From a bacterium (GTDB lineage: Bacteria; UBA9089; CG2-30-40-21; SBAY01), in assembly GCA_040757115.1 (NCBI GenBank), contig JBFLYA010000162.1, forward strand, positions 1 to 8,396: a stretch of 8,396 nt of DNA, written 5' to 3'. Shown here one piece after another: positions 1 through 8,243 of the stretch. A program made the position numbers and the translations under genes. Within the stretch, counting starts at the first letter, position 1, and each line of letters starts with the position of its first letter. The notes under the pieces are model-generated. The model saw nothing but the letters and a program-made list of their open reading frames with translations, searched no databases and had not been told where the DNA came from.

Positions 1-157
1 TTACCCAATAGAATACTGCACAAGAAATAAGGAAGGACATAAAAATAGCCCCAATGGAGACATAAGAACTTAAATCCTTATTCTTCCGTGTCCAAAATAC
101 GATTATCGGCACGGCTAATAATGGTAAAGTTGGCACCCACCAGGTATAAGAAAGCAT
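1..157 (-). CDS. nuoL: NADH-quinone oxidoreductase subunit L, N-terminal fragment (cut by window edge)
   Basis: Partial gene: 52 codons read from ATG at 157 to the window edge with no stop. The product begins MLSYTWWVPTLPLLAVPII, a hydrophobic first helix with the W-V-P-x-L-P-L-L pattern common at NuoL N-termini. A short charged loop (RKNKD, about residues 24-28) and a second hydrophobic helix follow. NuoL is the large antiporter-like, proton-pumping subunit at the far end of the complex I membrane arm. The identification rests mainly on position, as the next nuo gene after nuoK, because NuoM and NuoN also start with hydrophobic helices. The start is well supported by AGGAG at 166-170, 8 nt upstream. 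That Shine-Dalgarno sequence lies inside the last codons of the upstream HEPN toxin gene, whose stop is at 163-165, so nuoL translation is probably coupled to it. Confidence 0.8.
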   Translation of the reverse strand, partial: MLSYTWWVPTLPLLAVPIIVFWTRKNKDLSSYVSIGAIFMSFLISCAVFYWV

Positions 158-162
158 AATAT

Positions 163-603
163 TCACTCCTTTTGTTTATTTTCTTCTCTTTTCAATATAG
201 AAGTTAATAATCTCTCAATCAAAGGGCAATTAGTTTTATACATATTTATTACCTGCCATTTAAGATTGAGATAACGGTGAACTAACCGATTTCTGGCAAT
301 AGCTAATTGAGCCATATTTTGTTGTTCTTCATCTGTCAAACCAAATAAGTTAGCACACTTTTGCATTACCTCAGCATAATTTTCTACGGCAATACCTTCT
401 TGTGTCAGGAGACTTCCACTTATTTCAATAAGTGCAGTAAGAATATTTTCAACCGTCCTTTCCATAATCTTCTGAAGTTCTCTATCTTTCTCATATTCCT
501 CCCATGTCTTATCTGCATATTTTGTATCAAATTCTTTCATCTCATCAGAGATAAATTGGAGGGATTCGATAATTCTTCCTTTTGCATACTCAAACTTAGC
601 CAT
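163..603 (-). CDS. HepT-like HEPN-domain ribonuclease toxin (DUF86 type)
   Basis: 146-residue all-helical protein of the DUF86/HepT family, the toxin half of MntA/HepT (type VII) toxin-antitoxin systems. HEPN toxins of this family cleave RNA. The catalytic RX4HXY motif is intact: R104, N105, H109 and Y111 in RNRLVHRYL. In characterised HepT proteins, the tyrosine of this motif is the residue that the partner MntA modifies with AMP. The region around residues 49-100 (helix RTVENILTALIEIS, then a Y-A-E-V segment) also matches the family pattern. The ATG at 603 overlaps the end of the upstream nucleotidyltransferase by 8 bp (ATGGCTAA), which is typical of a coupled antitoxin-toxin pair. Its last codons carry the ribosome-binding site of nuoL. 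It is one of three HEPN genes in the window but belongs to a different subfamily from the other two. Confidence 0.88.
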   Translation of the reverse strand: MAKFEYAKGRIIESLQFISDEMKEFDTKYADKTWEEYEKDRELQKIMERTVENILTALIEISGSLLTQEGIAVENYAEVMQKCANLFGLTDEEQQNMAQLAIARNRLVHRYLNLKWQVINMYKTNCPLIERLLTSILKREENKQKE

Positions 604-1048
604 ACTTTAGTGCCTCCAAATTTTTCCGCGTCATTTCTATCTGCCATTTTATCCCAAATATACTAAAATCTTCCATCTGAAATATAGCTTCGTTCTTTAA
701 TTTAACATATTCTTGAAAATCGTTAATGTATATTGGGGTACTTAGAATAATGGCATTATAATAGAGCATAGGTTTTCTAAAATCCCTATAAATTGGAAGT
801 ATATTTACCTCTTTATTAATCTTTGAAGAGAGGTGATATGAAATATCCATAATAATATTGAATATTTCATCATCTGATAGTGACTCTGGTAATAACACAG
901 CTAAATCTACATCTGAATCTTGTCTGGGATAACCAGTTGCCCATGAACCGTATAAAAAGACCATCTCACTTTTATAATCCGCTGCCTTTTCTTTAAAAAA
1001 TGTTTTTAATGTTGAAATAAAGGTATCTTTATCTTGTTGAGTAATCAT
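596..1048 (-). CDS. MntA-like minimal nucleotidyltransferase (antitoxin of the HepT pair)
   Basis: 150-residue protein with a polymerase-beta-type nucleotidyltransferase fold. The diagnostic GSX10DXD motif is present: G34-S35, then D46-V-D48 in DSDVDLAVLL. Family knowledge: MntA transfers AMP to the catalytic tyrosine of its HepT partner and so silences the toxin. The C-terminal helical part (about residues 105-150) is longer than in the two other MNTs of this window and fits the MntA subgroup. One oddity is that the strand that usually supplies the third metal-binding carboxylate reads EVNILPI, with N82 where the paralogues have Asp (KIDLV, KIDIV). E80 is close and might substitute. The start at 1048 has AGAGGT at 1054-1059, 5 nt upstream. 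The gene begins 35 bp after the protease gene and overlaps the HEPN gene by 8 bp. Confidence 0.87.
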   Translation of the reverse strand: MITQQDKDTFISTLKTFFKEKAADYKSEMVFLYGSWATGYPRQDSDVDLAVLLPESLSDDEIFNIIMDISYHLSSKINKEVNILPIYRDFRKPMLYYNAIILSTPIYINDFQEYVKLKNEAIFQMEDFSIFGIKWQIEMTRKNLEALKYG

Positions 1049-1063
1049 TTAAGACCTCTTTCT

Positions 1064-1084
1064 AACAAACACAAAAGGTTTGTT
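1064..1084. repeat. 7-bp inverted repeat between protease and MNT genes
   Basis: AACAAAC (1064-1070) and GTTTGTT (1078-1084) are perfect inverted repeats with a 7-nt loop. They lie between the protease stop and the mntA-like start. No T-tract follows on the minus strand, so this is not a convincing terminator. It might be a weak mRNA hairpin. Confidence 0.35.
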
Positions 1085-1500
1085 TAATAAAGATCTGTAA
1101 TCCACTTTCCCTCATGTTCGGGATTAGGAATTATTCTCTGTGATTTTGTATCAACAACAAAATCCATATCTTCTAATACCAGGTACCCAATTAGAGGCGG
1201 TGTAGATGCATCATTTTCCATCACCTGCATTTCAATGTCTCTATCCTGAATAATGATAATTGCTCCCCTAAAGATACGGCGATTTACCCGTCCATTGGCA
1301 GTTGATATTTCTCGTGTATGGGAATATAATAATCCTAATCTTTCAATTATATCTGGCGGCAGACATAGATATGCGGCACCAGTATCCACTATTCCCTCAA
1401 TTTCAACACTCCTTATTTCATTTTCTCTAATCATCCCTTTAGTCTGCAATACCACATCTGCAAAATTTTTAACTACAACCTTTTCAACAGTTCTTCCCAT
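1084..1500 (-). CDS. retropepsin-like (clan AA) aspartic protease
   Basis: 138-residue single-domain protein. It carries the aspartic-protease motif D39-T-G-A42 (GIVDTGAAYLCLP), followed by the second half of a retropepsin-like fold with LIGYLVLEDMDFVVD (about 103-117) and an N-P-E-H tail (about 126-129). That tail is common in small prokaryotic clan AA proteases, which are thought to act as homodimers. The substrate is unknown. No signal peptide or membrane helix is visible, so it is likely cytoplasmic. A GTG at 1509 would add three residues, but ATG at 1500 is preferred because GAGG (1509-1512) lies 8 nt upstream of it. The gene follows nuoK by only 18 bp and precedes an MNT/HEPN pair, so it appears co-transcribed with complex I. 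Whether it belongs functionally to the toxin pair or is an independent insertion cannot be told from sequence. Confidence 0.8.
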   Translation of the reverse strand: MGRTVEKVVVKNFADVVLQTKGMIRENEIRSVEIEGIVDTGAAYLCLPPDIIERLGLLYSHTREISTANGRVNRRIFRGAIIIIQDRDIEMQVMENDASTPPLIGYLVLEDMDFVVDTKSQRIIPNPEHEGKWITDLY

Positions 1501-1518
1501 TTTACCCACCTCTTCTTT

Positions 1519-1824
1519 TCACCACTTCATCAAATTTATCTTCTCCATATTGACTGTTTTTATATGGCGATAGATAGCGATAATGATAGCCAAACCAACG
1601 GCGGCTTCTGCGGCGGCTATGGTTATGGTAAATATAGTAAATATCTGACCGGTTAGTTCATTTGGGGTAACATATTTTGAGAAGGCAACTAAATTGATAT
1701 TGACCGCATTTAACATTATCTCAATGCACAAAAGTATGCCAATGGCATTTCTACGAGTTAAAGCACCATACACTCCAATGGCAAAAAGTATAGCCGATAG
1801 AATAAGATAATGCGATAAAGTCAT
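1519..1824 (-). CDS. nuoK: NADH-quinone oxidoreductase subunit K
   Basis: 101 residues, the usual NuoK length, with three transmembrane helices (about 5-22, 28-50 and 60-86). The two membrane-embedded glutamates needed for proton translocation are visible: E35 in [11 protein letters not shown] and E73 in [11 protein letters not shown]. NuoK sits in the membrane arm of complex I next to NuoJ and NuoN and forms part of a proton channel. The start at 1824 is preceded by GGAAGGA (1834-1840), about 9 nt away. Between nuoJ and nuoK, which are normally adjacent or overlapping, this genome has an MNT/HEPN pair. After the nuoK stop the protease gene begins within 18 bp. The sequence is intact, so the subunit should be functional despite the interrupted operon. 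Confidence 0.96.
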
Positions 1825-1861
1825 TGTCTTTTATCCTTCCTTTTTAAATTTATGATTTTAG

Positions 1862-1896
1862 ATTGATGATTACTAACTTCAATCCTCATCATCAAT
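1862..1896. repeat. 9-bp inverted repeat upstream of nuoK
   Basis: ATTGATGAT (1862-1870) and ATCATCAAT (1888-1896) form a perfect 9-bp stem with a 17-nt loop. They lie in the 74-bp spacer between the HEPN stop and nuoK. There is no U-run after the stem on the minus strand. It could be an mRNA structure modulating nuoK expression or an insertion scar. Confidence 0.45.
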
Positions 1897-1898
1897 TG

Positions 1899-1911
1899 TT
1901 AATTTGCTAAT
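1899..1911. repeat. 13-bp direct repeat, copy 1, at the downstream edge of the MNT/HEPN module
   Basis: TTAATTTGCTAAT is identical to 2757-2769 in the same orientation. This copy contains the HEPN stop codon (TAA on the minus strand). Together the copies bracket the MNT/HEPN pair between nuoJ and nuoK, as a target duplication or recombination site would. The sequence is AT-rich and of heptad-repeat type, so chance or array homology is not excluded. Confidence 0.6.
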
Positions 1912-2429
1912 TCAGTAAGCTGTTTTATGTTAGTTTTTATTTTTTCATAAATCTCGCACAGTTTATTAGATATTTCAAAGAGTTTATTTATGCCATCTAC
2001 AATATCTTTTTCTTCTTCGCTGTATTCATGGGTAAGGATATTTCTCAATTTTCTAAGTATAATCCATTCCTGTGCACTCTCAATTATCTTAAGTTTTTCT
2101 GCTCTGTTTAATACATCAATAAAAGGGCTGTCTTCTATATCTTCGCCAAGATTCACCAGTAAAATCTTTAATAATCTACCTGCGGTATCCTGAAGTTTGC
2201 CAAAGCGATATGACATCTGGTCTATATATGAGATTTCCTGCTCTGTAAGTTTCTCATATTTTTCTATACTTAAAGGGACTATCTGTTGAAGGACATCTAT
2301 TCCCGAAATAAGTCTTTTCATATGAAGGTTACAGATAGATATGTAAAACTTCAAATTCTCCTGACTAAAATTATATTCTAACCCCTGTTGATTTTGCATA
2401 TTTATAAATTGGTTCTTTTCGTGTTTCAT
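1899..2429 (-). CDS. HEPN-domain toxin-like protein (nucleotidyltransferase partner)
   Basis: 176-residue helical protein, partner of the MNT just upstream. The RX4HXY ribonuclease motif is intact: R129, N130, H134 and Y136 in LRNILTHEY. It resembles the HEPN protein at 6139-6645 in length, in the LRNxxxHEY motif and in the helices before it (YRFGKLQDTAGR against SRFARTSDIYTQ), so the two are paralogues or homologous acquisitions. Family members bind or are modified by the adjacent nucleotidyltransferase and act as RNases in toxin-antitoxin modules. The start is uncertain: ATG at 2429 overlaps the MNT by 59 bp, while ATG at 2399 (residue 11) would overlap by 29 bp. Neither has a strong Shine-Dalgarno sequence. 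The last codons (L-A-N-stop) lie in a 13-bp sequence repeated on the other side of the module. Confidence 0.82.
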   Translation of the reverse strand: MKHEKNQFINMQNQQGLEYNFSQENLKFYISICNLHMKRLISGIDVLQQIVPLSIEKYEKLTEQEISYIDQMSYRFGKLQDTAGRLLKILLVNLGEDIEDSPFIDVLNRAEKLKIIESAQEWIILRKLRNILTHEYSEEEKDIVDGINKLFEISNKLCEIYEKIKTNIKQLTELAN

Positions 2430-2670
2430 TTCTTTTTTTAACCACCAAATCTATTTTTTGGTCTCCTAATGCGATTTCAAGGTTTGCAAGGAATCTTGCC
2501 TTTGCTTCAATAATCTCCGGTGCGATTGAGGTTTCAATATAGATATCAATATCTCCACCCCTTTTTGTATTGTCAATTCTGGAGCCAAAGATAGCTACCT
2601 CGCAATCCTTGCCAAAATATTCTATGGCAAGTTTCTTGATTAGTTTTAATATCTCTTCTTTAATTCGCAA
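2371..2670 (-). CDS. minimal nucleotidyltransferase (MNT), HEPN partner
   Basis: 99-residue single-domain nucleotidyltransferase. G29-S30, then D40-I-D42 (GSX9DXD in the context GSRIDNTKRGGDIDIYI) and a third acidic residue D74 in QKIDLVV give a complete metal-binding triad. Proteins of this group AMPylate and neutralise their HEPN partner, which here is encoded immediately downstream and overlaps it. It is clearly related to the MNT at 6642-6929: both start MRI, share GSR-D-GGDIDI and QKID, and end GVRI or GIRL. The start is a TTG at 2670. No ATG occurs in frame, a stop lies just upstream in frame, and the MRI start aligns with the ATG start of the paralogue. AAGG lies about 9 nt before the TTG. 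The 109-bp spacer to nuoJ contains heptad-like repeats. Confidence 0.85.
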   Translation of the reverse strand: MRIKEEILKLIKKLAIEYFGKDCEVAIFGSRIDNTKRGGDIDIYIETSIAPEIIEAKARFLANLEIALGDQKIDLVVKKRNETRKEPIYKYAKSTGVRI

Positions 2671-2788
2671 TTTCTATGACCTTTTTAACTCTATTGCACT
2701 TGAATAGAGCGCCCTCTGGTTCATCGTTCATCGTAGTTTATAGAGTTTCTAACTCATTAATTTGCTAATCTCTAATCCGCTAATTCTC
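2671..2788. repeat. heptanucleotide-repeat spacer between nuoJ and the second MNT
   Basis: This spacer is made largely of short repeats. GTTCATC occurs twice in tandem (2719-2732) and TAGTTTATAG occurs at 2734-2743. Heptads of CTAATCT, CTAATCC and CTAATTC type fill 2765-2786. The last unit overlaps the nuoJ stop codon (TAG at 2780-2782) and its final codons. The same repeat types occur around the nuoI/MNT/HEPN/nuoH junctions and in the long spacer upstream of nuoI. Confidence 0.6.
2757..2769. repeat. 13-bp direct repeat, copy 2, at the upstream edge of the MNT/HEPN module
   Basis: This is an identical, same-orientation copy of 1899-1911. With that copy it delimits an 871-bp segment carrying the MNT and HEPN genes. 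Collapsing the two copies would bring the nuoJ stop to within about 100 bp of the nuoK start, which would resemble a normal spacer. Confidence 0.6.
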
Positions 2789-3283
2789 TTCTTTTTTCGC
2801 AATCACAATTGCACCAATCAGACAGGCTAATAATACCAATGAGATTAACTCAAAAGGAAAAACATAGGTAGTTAAAAGCAAATTACCAATTTTAGCGGTA
2901 GTATTAACCACTTCTGAAGTGGGAGTAACATTCCAGGTTGTCTTCGTCAGCACCGTGATTAAAAGGAATAACAGAAGTCCGGCTAAAATAGCCGAAGTGC
3001 TCTTTTGTTCATTGGTTTGTTTTATACCTTTGTCTGAAATTCTATAAGTCAACATAATTAAGAATAGAAATAAGACAATAATTGCACCAACATAGATTAA
3101 TACCTGCACCAGAGCAATAAATTCTGCCCATAGGGTAATGTATAATCCTGCCAGTGTCAATAGCAAAAGTGCTAAAGAAACGACACAATGCACCAGACTT
3201 CTCAGACTAACAACTAAAATAGCACTTATAACGGCAATTCCTGCCAGGATATAAAATGTTATCATACTACCAACGCCTTCCAT
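2780..3283 (-). CDS. nuoJ: NADH-quinone oxidoreductase subunit J
   Basis: 167 residues with five hydrophobic helices (about 8-25, 30-50, 55-79, 98-113 and 140-162). The conserved block EFIALVQVLIYVGAI (54-68) corresponds to the third helix, which carries the mobile pi-bulge region of complex I. NuoJ lies between the quinone cavity and the antiporter subunits and links quinone reduction to proton pumping. ATG at 3283 is chosen over the internal ATG at 3265 because AGGAG (3291-3295) sits 7 nt upstream. That Shine-Dalgarno sequence directly follows the stop of the PIN-like gene (TAAAGGAG), so nuoJ is only 12 bp from the inserted gene and likely coupled to it. The C-terminus (KKEEN) runs into a heptad-repeat spacer. 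Confidence 0.95.
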   Translation of the reverse strand: MEGVGSMITFYILAGIAVISAILVVSLRSLVHCVVSLALLLLTLAGLYITLWAEFIALVQVLIYVGAIIVLFLFLIMLTYRISDKGIKQTNEQKSTSAILAGLLLFLLITVLTKTTWNVTPTSEVVNTTAKIGNLLLTTYVFPFELISLVLLACLIGAIVIAKKEEN

Positions 3284-3295
3284 TAAATTTCTCCT

Positions 3296-3772
3296 TTAAC
3301 AATCGTAATTTTTAAGAAATTCATCCACCAGATAAATAGACAGTTCCTTTCGTGAAACCATTTTTTCTTTTAATCTATTATCTGTAGTCAGAATACAACT
3401 TTTTGTTGATATAGCAGCTTTAACTAAATACAAATCATCTTCTGGTGTTTCTTGTATTAGTTCTGAAGATAATGGAATTAAATTATTTTCTTCAAGTATC
3501 TCAAATTTTTTACTATTAGTCCGAAATTGATAAATAAAATTTTTTACCAAACTTCTAATTTCAGGTCTCCAATTACCTGATTCTTTTGCTATCCCCCATA
3601 TTTTTTTCTCTAACTTTCCTCCCTTTATTATAACGAATTTATCGCATTTTTCAAAAACCTTCTGTAAAAATTCAAACACTATCTTTTGTTTTTCAGGTGT
3701 TGACTCTTTAGGTGATATAAAATGAATTATCCACTCATCAATAACGATATTCAATCTGTCTCTATGTTTCAC
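3296..3772 (-). CDS. PIN-like domain protein, putative nuclease partner of the AAA ATPase
   Basis: 158-residue protein with the layout of a PIN-type nuclease. An N-terminal strand is followed by acidic residues (NIVIDEWIIHF, D12 and E13). A central acidic cluster follows (E111-D112-D113, PEDDLYLVKAAI), and then a strand ending in a conserved Asp (ILTTDNRLKEKM, D131 and N132). PIN domains cleave RNA using such clustered carboxylates. The assignment is by motif pattern only and no close family is recognised. The start is GTG at 3772, directly abutting the TAG stop of the ATPase gene with no spacer, and AGGAG (3781-3785) lies 8 nt upstream. This coupling strongly implies that the two products work together, plausibly as a nuclease effector controlled by the ATPase in a defence- or toxin-like module. 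Confidence 0.68.
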   Translation of the reverse strand: MKHRDRLNIVIDEWIIHFISPKESTPEKQKIVFEFLQKVFEKCDKFVIIKGGKLEKKIWGIAKESGNWRPEIRSLVKNFIYQFRTNSKKFEILEENNLIPLSSELIQETPEDDLYLVKAAISTKSCILTTDNRLKEKMVSRKELSIYLVDEFLKNYDC

Positions 3773-4951
3773 CTATTTTACTCCTAAAATATCCTTAAGG
3801 TCTTCTAACTCTCCTTCCATAAAAGAAGTCAATCCACCTTCAATCTGGCCATTATCATTTATCCCTTGATATTCAAATTTACTTTCGCGGTTATCTTTCG
3901 TGCATAAATAGCAAGATAAATTATTCGGTTCAAGTTCTTTTTTAGCGACGGCGCTAAGTAGAGCTAACACAAAATGTTCACTATGAGTAGAGATAATAAT
4001 TGTTTTCTTTAAGTCCTTAGTCATTCGGATTAAGGCATAAGCAAGATTCCTTAATGCCTTTGGATGTAAATGAATTTCTGGTTCTTCAATACATACCACC
4101 GCCGTATCTCTATAAAGACATTTTGCCAGTAAATAAACCACTTGATTGATGCCAAATCCATCGTTAACTAATTCTGTGGTTAATCCGGTTGTTTTATCAA
4201 GGGTATTAAGCCAGAAGAGATTAGTTCCTGGTGTCATTTTGACCCGCAAGTCCTTTTGAAGGATTTGTTCAAGATAATGACTGACTTCACCTTCCAGATA
4301 CGGTTCATTGGCTAAAAGAGTGGCTACTTCATCTTCTGTAAATACTGGAGGAGCAAGTGAAACTATTCCATAATGTGGTTTTGAAAATCCTCGTTTTAGA
4401 TGCACAAAATCAGTTTTCCTGATAATCTCTATATGAGCATTAAGTAGAGTAGCTAATTCCTGAGAAGAACAGGAGGTTATATGTTGTGTTGGTATACTTT
4501 TTACTTGAGCAAGAATTCCATTCCAGGTTATTGAGAATCCTTCTATATCTACCGTTTCTTGTTGATTTGTAGGATAAGGGAATGTTATTTCAAGGTCAAG
4601 TGTAATATTCCATGGTAAAATTATGAGTCCGAACCTTCCATTTTTTTTACTCAGGCTAATTCTATAAAAGACCTGTATTGAATTATATTCGCAATTAATT
4701 CCTAATTTAATTTGTTCCTCAACACTATGATTAAACACTATTTGTTCAAACCCACCAAAATTGCTAAATCCAAGATTAAAAAAGCTATCAGTAGTTTGAT
4801 TAGGATTAAGAACAATATTTTTAAGAATTGCCAGGGAATGCATAATCGTCGATTTTCCAGAGCCATTTGGACCATAAAGTAGTGTTATCGGAGCAATTTG
4901 AATTATCTGTTTCTTAATAGACCTTAAATTTTCAATTTCAATATTTAACAT
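3773..4951 (-). CDS. ABC-type AAA-family ATPase (AAA_21/COG4938-like), defence-module type
   Basis: 392-residue ATPase of the SMC/ABC-related AAA_15/AAA_21 group. The order is an N-terminal strand plus Walker A GPNGSGKST (27-35), a long insert (about 50-255), a signature-like LVNDGFGINQV (261-271), Walker B VVCIEEPEIHLHP (285-297) and the switch histidine in ISTHSEH (320-326). The C-terminus (SFMEGELEDLKDIL) resembles the acidic tail of DUF3696/COG4938 proteins. Such ATPases recur in anti-phage systems, where they sense infection and control a nuclease or toxin. Here the next gene encodes a PIN-like protein. The ATG at 4951 lies 1 nt after the nuoH stop, and GAGG (4960-4963) inside the last nuoH codons serves as ribosome-binding site. 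It is not an OLD or PARIS pair as far as can be seen, because no TOPRIM domain is present. Confidence 0.85.
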   Translation of the reverse strand: MLNIEIENLRSIKKQIIQIAPITLLYGPNGSGKSTIMHSLAILKNIVLNPNQTTDSFFNLGFSNFGGFEQIVFNHSVEEQIKLGINCEYNSIQVFYRISLSKKNGRFGLIILPWNITLDLEITFPYPTNQQETVDIEGFSITWNGILAQVKSIPTQHITSCSSQELATLLNAHIEIIRKTDFVHLKRGFSKPHYGIVSLAPPVFTEDEVATLLANEPYLEGEVSHYLEQILQKDLRVKMTPGTNLFWLNTLDKTTGLTTELVNDGFGINQVVYLLAKCLYRDTAVVCIEEPEIHLHPKALRNLAYALIRMTKDLKKTIIISTHSEHFVLALLSAVAKKELEPNNLSCYLCTKDNRESKFEYQGINDNGQIEGGLTSFMEGELEDLKDILGVK

Positions 4952-4952
4952 T

Positions 4953-6020
4953 TTAAATACCTCGTGAACTAAATACCATCAGTAACCCCGTAATAATTAT
5001 ATTAATAAATCCCAGTGGAACTAAGAATTTCCAGCCAAAGGTCATTAATTGGTCGACGCGTAGTCTGGGATAAGTCCATCTAATCCACATCATTACAAAG
5101 ACGATGGCATAGGTTTTAGCTAAAAACCAGATAATTGGTGGTAATGTAACCGGGATTTCTGGTATTGCTTGCCAACCACCCAAAAATAAACTTGTGCAAA
5201 TTGCACAGACAACAAACATATTTGCGTATTCAGCTAAGAAAAACATAGCAAATTTTATACCGCCGTATTCGGTATGGAAACCGGCGACAAGTTCTGATTC
5301 TGCCTCCGGGATGTCAAATGGTGCTCGATTGCATTCAGCCGTAGCCGCAATTAAATAAAGTAAAAAGCCAAGTGGTTGATAGCAGATATACCAGATATTT
5401 CTCTGGGCATCAACTATATCGCCCATTTTTAAAGAACCAGCTATCATCACTATCCCTAAGAGAGATAACACAATTGCGACTTCGTAACTTACCACCTGAG
5501 CCGCACTTCGCATCCCACCAAGTAATGAATATTTATTGCCCGATGACCAACCAGCCATAATTATTCCAATACTTCCAATACTACTCACGGCTAAAAGATA
5601 TAATAGCCCAAGATTCAAATCTCTAACGATAATTCCAGGTGACCAGGGAAGCACCACATAACACATTATCGCCGGGAAAAAGACGATTATCGGTGACAGG
5701 AAAAACATTGTTTTATCCGCCGCCTTTGGCATTAAGTTTTCTTTCAAAACAAGTTTAACGGCATCGGCGGCTGTTTGTAAAATGCCGTGAAATCCAACCC
5801 GCATTGGTCCCAGTCTATCCTGGATATGAGCGGCTATTTTGCGTTCAGCTAAAACTAACATCATCGTATTAACTGCCACAAATCCAGCAAGTATTCCTGC
5901 CACGATAACCATAATTCCCACAGTTAATACAATAAATGGGATATTATAATCCCAGCATAACTTTTGTAAGAAAATATAGATTCTATCAATTAATTCTTGT
6001 GTCTTAAATAATAACTCCAT
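4953..6020 (-). CDS. nuoH: NADH-quinone oxidoreductase subunit H
   Basis: 355 residues, close to or slightly longer than typical NuoH, with about eight or nine transmembrane helices. Diagnostic blocks are LAERKIAAHIQDRLGPMRVG (57-76), YSLLGGMRSAAQVVSYE (164-180), and the quinone-channel loop AECNRAPFDIPEAESELVAG (228-247) followed by FHTEYGGIKFAMFFLAEY (248-265). NuoH anchors the peripheral arm and forms much of the ubiquinone/menaquinone cavity. The extra length is at the N-terminus, an amphipathic stretch before the first helix at about residue 28. GGGGGT (6028-6033) lies 7 nt before the ATG, and a five-codon minicistron ends 1 nt before it. In most bacteria nuoI follows nuoH. Here nuoI is upstream, separated by an MNT/HEPN pair, and an ATPase gene follows. 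Confidence 0.96.
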   Translation of the reverse strand: MELLFKTQELIDRIYIFLQKLCWDYNIPFIVLTVGIMVIVAGILAGFVAVNTMMLVLAERKIAAHIQDRLGPMRVGFHGILQTAADAVKLVLKENLMPKAADKTMFFLSPIIVFFPAIMCYVVLPWSPGIIVRDLNLGLLYLLAVSSIGSIGIIMAGWSSGNKYSLLGGMRSAAQVVSYEVAIVLSLLGIVMIAGSLKMGDIVDAQRNIWYICYQPLGFLLYLIAATAECNRAPFDIPEAESELVAGFHTEYGGIKFAMFFLAEYANMFVVCAICTSLFLGGWQAIPEIPVTLPPIIWFLAKTYAIVFVMMWIRWTYPRLRVDQLMTFGWKFLVPLGFINIIITGLLMVFSSRGI

Positions 6021-6021
6021 C

Positions 6022-6039
6022 TTATCTACCCCCGTTCAT
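6022..6039 (-). other. five-codon minicistron (MNGGR) directly upstream of nuoH
   Basis: ATG at 6039 opens a five-codon frame (M-N-G-G-R) that ends in TAA at 6022-6024, one base before the nuoH ATG. It has a better Shine-Dalgarno sequence (AGGAG, 6047-6051, 7-nt spacing) than nuoH itself. The nuoH ribosome-binding site GGGGGT lies inside it. It could be a translational-coupling or leader minicistron, or a scar from the module insertion. It could also be chance. Confidence 0.4.
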
Positions 6040-6064
6040 AACCGTTCTCCTGAAAATAGTTAAT

Positions 6065-6128
6065 TAGAGATTAGAGAATTAGTGAATTAGAACCTGCACT
6101 CTTGCTAATCTCCAATCTCTAATCTCTA
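6065..6128. repeat. inverted heptad arrays between HEPN and nuoH
   Basis: ATTAGAG-type heptads (6063-6090) face CTAATCT/CCAATCT/CTAATCT heptads (6105-6125). The outer 13 bp (6065-6077 with 6116-6128, TAGAGATTAGAGA) are perfectly complementary, and an inner ATTAG/CTAAT pair (6086-6090 with 6105-6109) adds to the stem. The structure is a long AT-rich hairpin in the 118-bp spacer. No U-run follows it, so it is unlikely to be a simple terminator. Confidence 0.6.
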
Positions 6129-6138
6129 TGCTCAATTT

Positions 6139-6645
6139 TCATCCCCTTTTGTGCCCACTCACGGTGGGCATGGCCGTTTCTTCTGTTAACAACATTTTTC
6201 TGCCTATCGTTTCACTAAACGACTTTGTTTTTTCTATAATCTCTATCAACTTGTGGCTATATTCAATAACAGCCTCAAATATTTCAGTAATATCATCTAC
6301 CCTATATTCATGAGAGATTTCATTCCTTAAATCCCTTATCAATTTTAATTCTTCAGCAGAGGATATTTCCAGTTTTTCAAACAAATTTACTCTATCTATA
6401 AAAGTATTTGCTTCTTCTCTTAAAATAAGGATTATCCCCTTCATTATCTTTTGAGTGTAAATATCACTTGTTCTGGCAAATCTCGAAGTAAGGCTTTCAA
6501 ATCTATCAAGCTCTTCCAGAGAGTAATCTGTCTTTATCCCAATTTTTTCACACTCCTGCAATGAATGTTGCAACATTTTAACTGCCATATCCAGCCTATT
6601 AAGGTCTTTTTTTAACTCTTCTCTGATTAATGCTTCGGTTCTCAC
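6139..6645 (-). CDS. HEPN-domain toxin-like protein (nucleotidyltransferase partner)
   Basis: 168-residue helical protein with an intact RX4HXY motif (R107, N108, H112 and Y114 in LRNEISHEY), expected to be an RNase toxin or the target of the adjacent nucleotidyltransferase. It is related to the HEPN protein at 1899-2429 in motif context and helix pattern. The start is GTG at 6645, which overlaps the MNT stop as GTGA (4 bp), the classical coupled arrangement. The C-terminus is unusual: after about residue 150 the protein has a tail (…AMPTVSGHKRG) with no counterpart in the paralogue. That tail is encoded by a GC-rich perfect palindrome, which suggests that the original gene end was altered by insertion of a palindromic repeat. 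The gene lies between nuoI and nuoH on the same strand. Confidence 0.84.
   Translation of the reverse strand: MRTEALIREELKKDLNRLDMAVKMLQHSLQECEKIGIKTDYSLEELDRFESLTSRFARTSDIYTQKIMKGIILILREEANTFIDRVNLFEKLEISSAEELKLIRDLRNEISHEYRVDDITEIFEAVIEYSHKLIEIIEKTKSFSETIGRKMLLTEETAMPTVSGHKRG
6152..6170. repeat. GC-rich palindrome inside the HEPN 3' end
   Basis: TGCCCAC (6152-6158) and GTGGGCA (6164-6170) pair perfectly around a 5-nt loop. The G+C content contrasts with the AT-rich surroundings. It encodes the M-P-T-V-S-G-H tail of the HEPN protein, as a REP-like or other small palindromic insertion might. Confidence 0.55.
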
Positions 6646-6929
6646 AGCCTTATCCCTTCCTGCAAAACCAGTTCTTTAAACGCATCGTTCTCATTAAACA
6701 TAGAAGATACTATGTCAATTTTTTGCTCGCCAAATTTCTCAAAATATCGCCATTTTATTTTGGCTTTTTCCTTCCATCTTATTTTCCTGTCAGATAGAAT
6801 CATAATATCTATATCTCCACCCTTTTTTTTGTCATCTACCCGTGAACCAAAAAGATAAACTACTGCATCTGGAACAAGAAGCAAAATCTCCCTTTTAAGA
6901 AACTCTAGTTGTTCTGCTGAAATTCTCAT
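6642..6929 (-). CDS. minimal nucleotidyltransferase (MNT), HEPN partner
   Basis: 95-residue single-domain nucleotidyltransferase with the full triad: G28-S29, D39-I-D41 (GSRVDDKKKGGDIDIMI, GSX9DXD) and D72 in QKIDIV. It is the likely antitoxin or modifier of the HEPN protein encoded immediately downstream (4-bp overlap). It aligns along its whole length with the MNT at 2371-2670, including the MRI start and the G-I-R-L/G-V-R-I end. The ATG start at 6929 has only a weak purine-rich site upstream (AGAGAA). It begins 22 bp after the nuoI stop, and a TATAGTTTAT stretch (6946-6955), also present in the long spacer upstream of nuoI, overlaps that stop. The gene therefore appears joined to nuoI through the same repeat type found at other junctions. 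Confidence 0.86.
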   Translation of the reverse strand: MRISAEQLEFLKREILLLVPDAVVYLFGSRVDDKKKGGDIDIMILSDRKIRWKEKAKIKWRYFEKFGEQKIDIVSSMFNENDAFKELVLQEGIRL

Positions 6930-6951
6930 TTTAATTTTCTCTGTCTATAGT

Positions 6952-7392
6952 TTATTTATACCTTGTCACCTCTGGTGGTTTATAGAGAAGCTCTTTTGTG
7001 TAAATCATTCCCGCTCGATTATAACACGCTAATTCATACTCACCAGTCATAGTCAAGGCATTTTTCGGACAGGCTTCGACACATAATCCACAAAACAGGC
7101 ATCTGGCAATATTTATTTCAAAGGATATAACCTCTTTGTTATAATCTGTTCCCTCACCGGTAACAATTTTTATTGCCTGAGAAGGACACATCTGGGCACA
7201 AAGGCAACAGCCTACACATCGTTCCTCGCCTTTCTCATCTATAGTTAATCTTTCCAATCCACGGTATCTATCGGCTACAATCCAGCGTTGTCGTGGATAT
7301 TGCAAGGTAACCGACTTAACAAATAAATGTCCAAAAGTGACGCATAATCCTTTTATAAGTTCTTTAATTGAGATAATTATATTCTGTCGCAT
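6952..7392 (-). CDS. nuoI: NADH-quinone oxidoreductase subunit I (2x[4Fe-4S] ferredoxin subunit)
   Basis: 146 residues with two complete [4Fe-4S] motifs: C59-C62-C65-C69 (CVGCCLCAQMCP) and C98-C101-C104-C108 (CLFCGLCVEACP). NuoI carries clusters N6a and N6b, passing electrons towards N2 and the quinone at the base of the peripheral arm. The N-terminus (ELIKGLCVTFGHLFVKSVTLQYP) is the membrane-surface helix typical of NuoI, followed by RYRGLERL, as in many homologues. The start is ATG at 7392. AAAGG abuts it, so the functional Shine-Dalgarno sequence may be the GGTGG about 12 nt upstream. Upstream lies a repeat-filled spacer and no further nuo gene, so in this block nuoI is the first complex I gene. 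It precedes nuoH, the reverse of the usual order. Confidence 0.95.
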   Translation of the reverse strand: MRQNIIISIKELIKGLCVTFGHLFVKSVTLQYPRQRWIVADRYRGLERLTIDEKGEERCVGCCLCAQMCPSQAIKIVTGEGTDYNKEVISFEINIARCLFCGLCVEACPKNALTMTGEYELACYNRAGMIYTKELLYKPPEVTRYK

Positions 7393-7425: not shown

Positions 7426-7521
7426 TAGAGTTCTGCAAAACTAAGAAACTGTAGTTTTTAAGCGGGTATTTAAAACCTCTATTTTTATCAATTTCCTCCA
7501 AAGAGCAAAATGCACAACTCG

Positions 7522-7557
7522 TTTATAGTTTATAGTGTATAGTGTATAGTTTATAGT
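7522..7557. repeat. tandem heptanucleotide array (TTTATAG/TGTATAG x5)
   Basis: Five contiguous 7-bp units read TTTATAG, TTTATAG, TGTATAG, TGTATAG, TTTATAG. It faces a second five-unit array on the opposite strand after a 4-nt gap, so the two can fold into a long imperfect hairpin with the core ATAGTT repeated every 7 bp. Confidence 0.75.
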
Positions 7558-7561
7558 CCTT

Positions 7562-7596
7562 CAACTATCAACTATCTACTATCAATTATCAACTAT
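7562..7596. repeat. tandem heptanucleotide array (CAACTAT-type x5), inverted relative to the previous array
   Basis: Five contiguous 7-bp units read CAACTAT, CAACTAT, CTACTAT, CAATTAT, CAACTAT. Read on the minus strand these are ATAGTTG-type units that match the ATAGTTT units of 7522-7557 with a mismatch at about every seventh base. Confidence 0.75.
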
Positions 7597-7688
7597 CTTT
7601 GCCAAAGTTCACTAAAATCATCTCTTTCCTTTCAACGTTAACATTCTCGAAGTCCTTTTTGAAATTTGATTTGTAATTTTGCATTTTG

Positions 7689-7729
7689 ATATTTATATTT
7701 GATATTTAATATTTAATATTTGATATTTA
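7689..7729. repeat. tandem heptanucleotide array (ATATTTA/ATATTTG)
   Basis: Units ATATTTA, TATTTG (6 nt), ATATTTA, ATATTTA, ATATTTG, ATATTTA run in tandem inside the MITE-like element. This is a second heptad family beside the ATAGTTT family. Confidence 0.7.
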
Positions 7730-7766
7730 TTTGTTGTCTCCCCCAAATCCTATTTTGCAGAACCAT

Positions 7767-7811: not shown

Positions 7812-8243
7812 TTATCCCTTTTGACTTTCAGCCAACACCCTGACAATGTCAGATATAGAAAGTAATCCTGCGGGAAACTTTTTTGTCTCCCCTTCCTTTC
7901 CATAGACACCTTTTACCTCTTCCTGGATGAGTAACCGATGTATTTTTTTCTGACGCATTATCTGACAGGCATTCTCCAGAGGTTCCTCTTTATCAATAGC
8001 AATTACCCCTTTTGTCATAATATCTTTAACTTTAACTTTAATTAAATCCTCACCAAATACCTTGACAACATCTGTTTCGGATAAAACGCCGATTAATCCT
8101 TCTTGAGAAGATGTAACCGCCAGTCCGCTGACCTTATTATCCGCCATTACTCTAACTGCTTGAGATACTGAGGCATTTTCCGGGATAATCAATACCCCTC
8201 TGACCATTACATCCTTTACCTTTATAGATTTTAAGTCTTTCAT
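7812..8243 (-). CDS. two-CBS-domain protein
   Basis: 143-residue protein consisting of a tandem pair of CBS domains (about 11-65 and 73-138), with the characteristic V-x-D-V-M start of the first (VKDVMVRG), VKDIMTKG starting the second, and GVLSETDVV and GLLSISDIV near their ends. CBS pairs bind adenine nucleotides (AMP, ATP, SAM) and act as energy-state sensors, but the partner of a stand-alone protein such as this cannot be deduced. The second domain has a short insert (about 109-124, with KGVYGKEGETKKF). ATG at 8243 has a strong AGGAGGT (8248-8254), 4 nt upstream. It is on the same strand as the nuo block but separated from nuoI by the 419-bp repeat spacer, so joint transcription is uncertain. 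Confidence 0.9.
   Translation of the reverse strand: MKDLKSIKVKDVMVRGVLIIPENASVSQAVRVMADNKVSGLAVTSSQEGLIGVLSETDVVKVFGEDLIKVKVKDIMTKGVIAIDKEEPLENACQIMRQKKIHRLLIQEEVKGVYGKEGETKKFPAGLLSISDIVRVLAESQKG

Follow-up and report, generated by a model that had tools for sequence, protein, structure and literature searches.

This locus raises the question of why a bacterial operon for respiratory complex I should hold a foreign gene cassette at every gene junction. The window, meaning the whole 8,396-bp stretch analysed, is a complete contig, C162, from the metagenome-assembled genome (MAG) G000, which totals 4.32 Mb; public MAGs around Candidatus Desantisbacteria are the closest named relatives of this genome. 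The genes of the window all lie on the minus strand, in the order CBS, nuoI, MNT/HEPN, nuoH, AAA ATPase/158-aa gene, nuoJ, MNT/HEPN, nuoK, aspartic protease, MntA-like/HepT-like and the start of nuoL (Table 1). Same-strand foreign genes at all four junctions of the nuoI-H-J-K-L string had been noticed in an original prediction made on the letters of the DNA, and these genes are indeed found at those places. Junctions are written here by gene letters, and the pairs are numbered MNT1/HEPN1 at I/H, MNT2/HEPN2 at J/K and MNT3/HEPN3 at K/L. The answer favored below is that the junctions of nuo and other core operons in this family are probably docking sites for horizontally exchanged toxin-antitoxin (TA) and defence modules.

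The first evidence comes from G001, a genome of the same genus as G000, which carries the same modules as the window at I/H, H/J, J/K and K/L. As G001 was assembled separately, with the locus on a 31.9-kb contig, the window arrangement is due neither to chance nor to one bad assembly. An assembly or binning artefact linking unrelated contigs, for which the short contigs of fragmented MAGs give some grounds, is extremely improbable given this shared arrangement, the related arrangements in public MAGs of other projects (L061, L062) and the intact reading frames with tight start-stop spacing. The locus could also have been a decayed duplicate of an intact nuo operon elsewhere in the genome; no second nuo copy was found in G000, and as nuoH occurs once there, the window string is not such a copy.

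Beyond the shared modules, the fill of the nuo junctions differs from genome to genome. At K/L, G001 has 3,216 bp extra exactly at the boundary between HEPN3 and nuoL, comprising DUF7718, a 336-aa gene, PIN and MNT; HicB/HicA lies at L/M, and a nucleotidyltransferase (NTase), YgiT-like and DUF4160/DUF2442 genes lie at M/N. This last junction varies within the genus, with DUF433/DUF5615 in G000 versus DUF4160/DUF2442 in G001. In the sister genus almost all of the fill consists of modules other than those of the window (HepT, HepT-like_2, ParE, HicA). Its member G002 has MNT/HepT at I/H, MNT/HepT-like_2 at H/J, an antitoxin-like gene with a ParE-like toxin at J/K, and HicBA, PHD/HicA, an MNT3/HEPN3 ortholog and MNT/NTase_sub_bind at K/L. 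G003, of the same genus as G002, has empty junctions at I/H (9-bp gap) and J/K (4-bp overlap), together with HicBA and MNT3/HEPN3 at K/L and HicBA at L/M; the same ParE-type module is seen at H/J in G003 and at J/K in G002. More distantly, the order-level relative G004 has a Uma2-type gene at H/J, and the nuo locus of G010 is compact. In 74 nuo loci from outside the phylum, with 293 junctions among them, 12 extra open reading frames were counted, and about three of these look foreign. The comparison of relatives proposed at the outset has therefore turned up occupied, differently filled and empty junctions alike, the genomic half of the result named there as decisive. As these positions are filled alike in some relatives, differently in others and not at all in yet others, the gaps between core-operon genes appear to act as exchangeable docking sites.

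The same kinds of modules are found in other operons of the family. The atpH/atpA junction holds Phd/ParE in G000, a 77-aa gene with PemK in G001 and MNT/HepT in both G002 and G003, and rnfC/rnfD holds an MNT-HepT fusion in G000 and G001, a TumE pair in G002 and G003, and nothing in G008 and G010. In G002, for which the fab, acs, leu and ispD core-gene names were assigned by reading the sequences, HicAB lies between fabH and fabD, a SwaI-like endonuclease/N6_N4 methylase pair between fabD and fabG (L279:6242-7728) and HicAB within the acetyl-CoA synthase gene string; more modules adjoin leuC/leuD and ispD. A pattern confined to complex I is ruled out by these examples, and the earlier idea of a respiratory operon as a landing site is upheld by the relatives, though not as a trait of respiratory operons alone. 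By hand tally over G000 to G003, a module was present in 19 of 23 bridged junctions in nuo, 5 of 14 in atp, 4 of 12 in rnf and none of 57 in ribosomal operons. The Fisher P for energy versus ribosomal junctions is about 1e-12, indicative only, because some assignments were visual and common descent makes shared junctions non-independent. The ribosomal exceptions are not TA modules, being a coiled-coil gene at rpsE/rpmD and a clan AA-type protease, recognized by its DTG-containing sequence, at rplJ/rplL.

The spread across operons bears directly on the proposal that the modules guard or regulate complex I, with loss or damage of the operon freeing a toxin or the modules tuning its expression. 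Such a role would suit a window in which all nuo junctions are filled, in the operon most densely occupied across the family. Against it, module contents vary among relatives, even within the genus at atpH/atpA and nuoM/nuoN, two nuo junctions are empty in G003, and unrelated operons (atp, rnf, fab, acs, leu) carry the same module kinds. As the contents change while nuo remains constant, a guard role is very unlikely, and the suggestion that the modules monitor complex I is not supported, given the lack of conserved module identity at each junction and the ParE-type module that sits at different junctions in two genomes. The modules would then be neither part nor sensor of complex I.

If the junctions are docking sites, modules should turn over faster than the core genes beside them, and by synonymous divergence (dS) several are much younger than those genes. 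Between G001 and G002 the nuo genes have dS of 0.66-1.27; at K/L, DUF7718 has 0.05, MNT98 0.12 and MNT3/HEPN3 about 0.48. Between G002 and G003 the core genes have dS of 0.35-0.59, and values of 0.05 and 0.10 were obtained for the atp HepT and the rnf TumE. Identity jumps at or near the module edges in atpH/atpA and rnfC/rnfD. Scars of gene ends are also present: in G000 a 248-bp copy of the nuoM 3' end (L241:2883-3130), with 91% identity to G001 nuoM, stands in nuoM/nuoN, ending at the stop and directly before DUF433/DUF5615. In G002 a 79-bp nuoL 5' copy (L246:5335-5413) forms a fusion with a HEPN3 3' tail and a DUF7718 segment, and the tail/DUF7718 segment has 96% identity to the G001 K/L island; two K/L islands appear to be stacked in G002. 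At the sequence level, scars and identity tracts are consistent with recombination among the alleles of a single junction.

Several observations weigh against the docking-site explanation and are gathered here. All genomes compared are short-contig MAGs, and the RelE-like, YgiT-like and TIR calls, HicB in G003 and DUF2283 at M/N in G002 are TA assignments by eye. Matches to HicA, ParE and NTP_transf_2 fall in energy operons in 24 of 160 cases versus 1.6 expected, an enrichment in favor of the explanation that is descriptive only, because the operons were chosen after the pattern had been seen. Not all modules are young, with dS of 0.83 for a shared YgiT-like gene and 0.72 for a ParD-like gene. 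No target-site duplication, insertion sequence or insertion machinery was seen at the G001 K/L insertion. The identity mosaic between G000 and G001 crosses core and module genes and ignores module edges; it was rejected as proof of independent module movement, and this pair speaks neither for nor against module-specific exchange, so the inference of exchange rests on the G001-G002 and G002-G003 pairs. Finally, the ratio of nonsynonymous to synonymous divergence (dN/dS) is 1.08 for HEPN1, 1.74 for the M/N NTase (on very few changes) and 0.67 for MNT98, and these three may be without constraint.

These last values also lend something to passive accretion, in which junctions tolerate inserts under weak selection and the modules are inert passengers; HEPN1 and the apparently relaxed M/N NTase would suit it, as would large fragmented genomes with many TA matches. 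Most modules have dN/dS of 0.02-0.5, well under 1 and pointing to purifying selection. The window modules also retain their catalytic motifs, as originally predicted for MNT, HEPN and ATPase: the three MNTs each have GSx9-10DxD and the three HEPNs each have Rx4HxY, the ATPase has Walker A/B and, in addition, the protease has DTG. Orientation is biased, with 23 of 27 TA matches flanked by large genes in G002 co-directional with both neighbors (P about 1.6e-4 even were all flanking pairs co-directional), and the ribosomal operons are free of TA modules. Passive accretion accordingly seems an unlikely account of the whole pattern. At the other extreme, the lineage might have a way of inserting TA and defence modules that targets them specifically, and in co-directional orientation, to the stop-start junctions of expressed operons, by which core operons would form a dispersed, promoter-free cassette store, integron-like in effect and lacking integrase or attC; this is a doubtful extension of the docking-site explanation.

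Under the docking-site explanation, small self-contained TA and defence modules would move horizontally among relatives and, lying co-directionally between two core genes, would probably be read from the transcript of the host operon. Judging from identity tracts and scars, modules may be swapped or stacked by recombination in which the core genes on either side serve as homology arms, or by illegitimate joining close to the ends of those genes, with the core genes staying intact throughout. Each module is most likely an autonomous addiction or anti-phage unit by its family assignment, in which MNT would neutralise a HEPN RNase and the ATPase would drive a nuclease-type effector. Clean deletion of a module from an operon that the cell needs would be difficult, and such a module would be transcribed at all times; together these would account for its persistence.

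The identity of the window modules was compared with known systems. In their pairing, their overlap and the motifs GSx9-10DxD and Rx4HxY, the MNT and HEPN genes resemble type VII MntA/HepT, a system marked by GSX10DXD in the MNT antitoxin, RX4-6HXY in the HEPN toxin and neutralisation of that toxin through AMPylation by the MNT; MNT3 has GSx10DxD, and MNT1 and MNT2 the form one residue shorter, GSx9DxD. The third pair, the sole pair compared with the NCBIfam equivalog cut-offs (60), falls under them at 53.1 bits for HEPN3 and 49.3 bits for MNT3, and the three pairs are therefore named MNT/HEPN-like and not MntA/HepT members. Unlike HepT-like proteins in Pfam, from which HEPN1 and HEPN2 are too divergent, these two are labelled by motif and gene order, HEPN2 having a weak NTase_sub_bind match. 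The H/J ATPase resembles OLD/NsnB-type AAA ATPase defence genes and aligns with NsnB over its whole length (PADLOC PDLC03878, 133 bits, residues 3-389); it differs from NsnB-containing systems in its partner, an unclassified 158-aa protein. That neighbor has no match in PADLOC, and none in Pfam or NCBIfam; no plasmid-borne relatives of it were found, and a structure prediction (pLDDT, the predicted local distance difference test, of 49) was too poor for use. Among the module labels first proposed, MNT, ATPase and protease stand, as does HEPN at K/L; HEPN at the other two junctions is a weak label, and 'PIN-like' for the 158-aa protein is unproven. Of the nuo genes described as intact, nuoI, nuoH, nuoJ and nuoK have Nuo family matches; nuoL is present as its first ~52 codons only, because the contig ends there. 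The CBS gene is an older part of the locus, since it is also found in G001 to G003.

Table 1. Features of the window (bit scores refer to the named family models)
Feature	Coordinates	Strand	Evidence and remarks
CBS-domain gene	7812..8243	-	upstream of nuoI; CBS gene also in G001-G003
nuoI	6952..7392	-	TIGR01971 NuoI 136.9 bits, over cut-off
MNT-type nucleotidyltransferase, antitoxin-like (I/H)	6642..6929	-	PF18765 40.2 bits; GSx9DxD
HEPN-type toxin-like gene (I/H)	6139..6645	-	4-bp overlap with MNT; Rx4HxY RNEISHEY; no Pfam match
nuoH	4953..6020	-	NuoH equivalog 369.7 bits; single copy
OLD/RecF-like AAA ATPase (AAA_15/AAA_21; H/J)	3773..4951	-	PF13175 83.6 bits; PADLOC NsnB 133 bits, full length; Walker A/B
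158-aa ATPase partner (H/J)	3296..3772	-	PIN-like by motif only; no family match
nuoJ	2780..3283	-	NuoJ models at most 136.4 bits, under their curated cut-offs
MNT-type nucleotidyltransferase (J/K)	2371..2670	-	PF18765 20.6 bits, under cut-off; GSx9DxD
HEPN-type toxin-like gene (J/K)	1899..2429	-	PF08780 23.2 bits, under cut-off; Rx4HxY RNILTHEY
nuoK	1519..1824	-	NuoK equivalog 153.9 bits
Clan AA aspartic protease (K/L)	1084..1509	-	PF13975 36.3 bits; TIGR03698 52.0 bits vs cut-off 57.35; DTG
MntA-like antitoxin (K/L)	596..1048	-	PF18765 48 bits; NF047752 49.3 vs cut-off 60; GSx10DxD
HepT-like toxin (K/L)	163..603	-	PF01934 48.7 bits; Rx4HxY RNRLVHRY; last codons contain likely nuoL ribosome-binding site
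nuoL 5' end	1..157	-	ATG at 157; 94% identity over 52 aa to G001 nuoL; start context

Within the window most spacing is tight: the ATPase gene lies 1 bp past nuoH, the 158-aa gene abuts the ATPase gene, nuoJ follows 12 bp on, and HEPN3 ends 5 bp ahead of the nuoL ATG. Wider gaps separate HEPN1 from nuoH (118 bp), nuoJ from MNT2 (109 bp) and HEPN2 from nuoK (74 bp), and no terminator-like site was seen on the coding strand within any junction of the window. AT-rich short tandem and inverted repeats occur in the gaps at 7500-7735, 2744-2789 and 6054-6117, with gap sizes unlike those of G001. Intergenic AT-rich short repeats were set aside as candidate insertion sites: they number no more than a few dozen copies in 800 kb, and no association with the modules emerged.

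Other genes were also encountered between core genes. A universal stress protein (Usp) gene with two Usp stretches fills nuoJ/nuoK in G008 and G013 (L155:10406-11293, L154:3789-4664), and a KilA-N-like gene, named by eye (293 aa, with a shorter 96-aa relative), lies at nuoM/nuoN in two Cyclobacteriaceae MAGs (L085, L093). Clan AA-type aspartic protease genes recur in core operons (L095:11211-11624, L154:6157-6543, L167:14137-14514 and 1084-1509 of the window); the sites besides the window are nuoK/nuoL in a Poribacteria MAG, nuoH/nuoJ in G013 and the rplJ/rplL junction of G000. The coiled-coil gene at rpsE/rpmD encodes 139-143 aa of no known family and is present in both species of the genus of G000 (L191:3984-4403, L222:3644-4075). 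In G000, nusG and rplK lie ~8 kb apart, with 624-aa and 1,589-aa genes in the interval (L167:3624-11724).

Parts of this pattern have been described before. A single published precedent is the MNT-HEPN module that one Thermus strain carries in its lysine operon (PMC2701414), likewise a two-gene unit inside a biosynthetic operon that one strain has and another lacks. There a lone module sits in a single operon; here all nuo junctions of the window, together with atp, rnf and others, are involved, and different TA types replace each other at a given junction across the family. Transfer hotspots flanked by core genes and free of mobile elements are known to turn over by flanking recombination, and the same source states that new genes rarely integrate within operons (PMC5635113). 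The junctions resemble those hotspots in being fixed sites between core genes with different accessory genes, fast turnover and no integrase seen; the accessory DNA is likewise younger than its flanks and bears a recombination signature (dS contrast, edge-aligned tracts, gene-end scars). They differ in lying within the nuo, atp and rnf operons instead of at operon edges, and in a cargo of almost only small TA and defence modules. A literature search of incomplete coverage returned nothing on TA modules that serially fill the junctions of nuo, atp or rnf operons. Compared with published cases, what would be new is this serial filling of core-operon junctions, TA modules in operons and core-flanked hotspots being already known.

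For the biology of this family, the docking-site explanation would mean that modules settle serially inside the complex I, ATP synthase and Rnf operons and are swapped there with the host genes left intact, where the expectation is settlement at operon edges. The family may thereby provide a natural setting in which to test what keeps chromosomal TA modules in place, be it addiction, defence value or anchoring in an indispensable transcript, and how operons keep working with every junction occupied.

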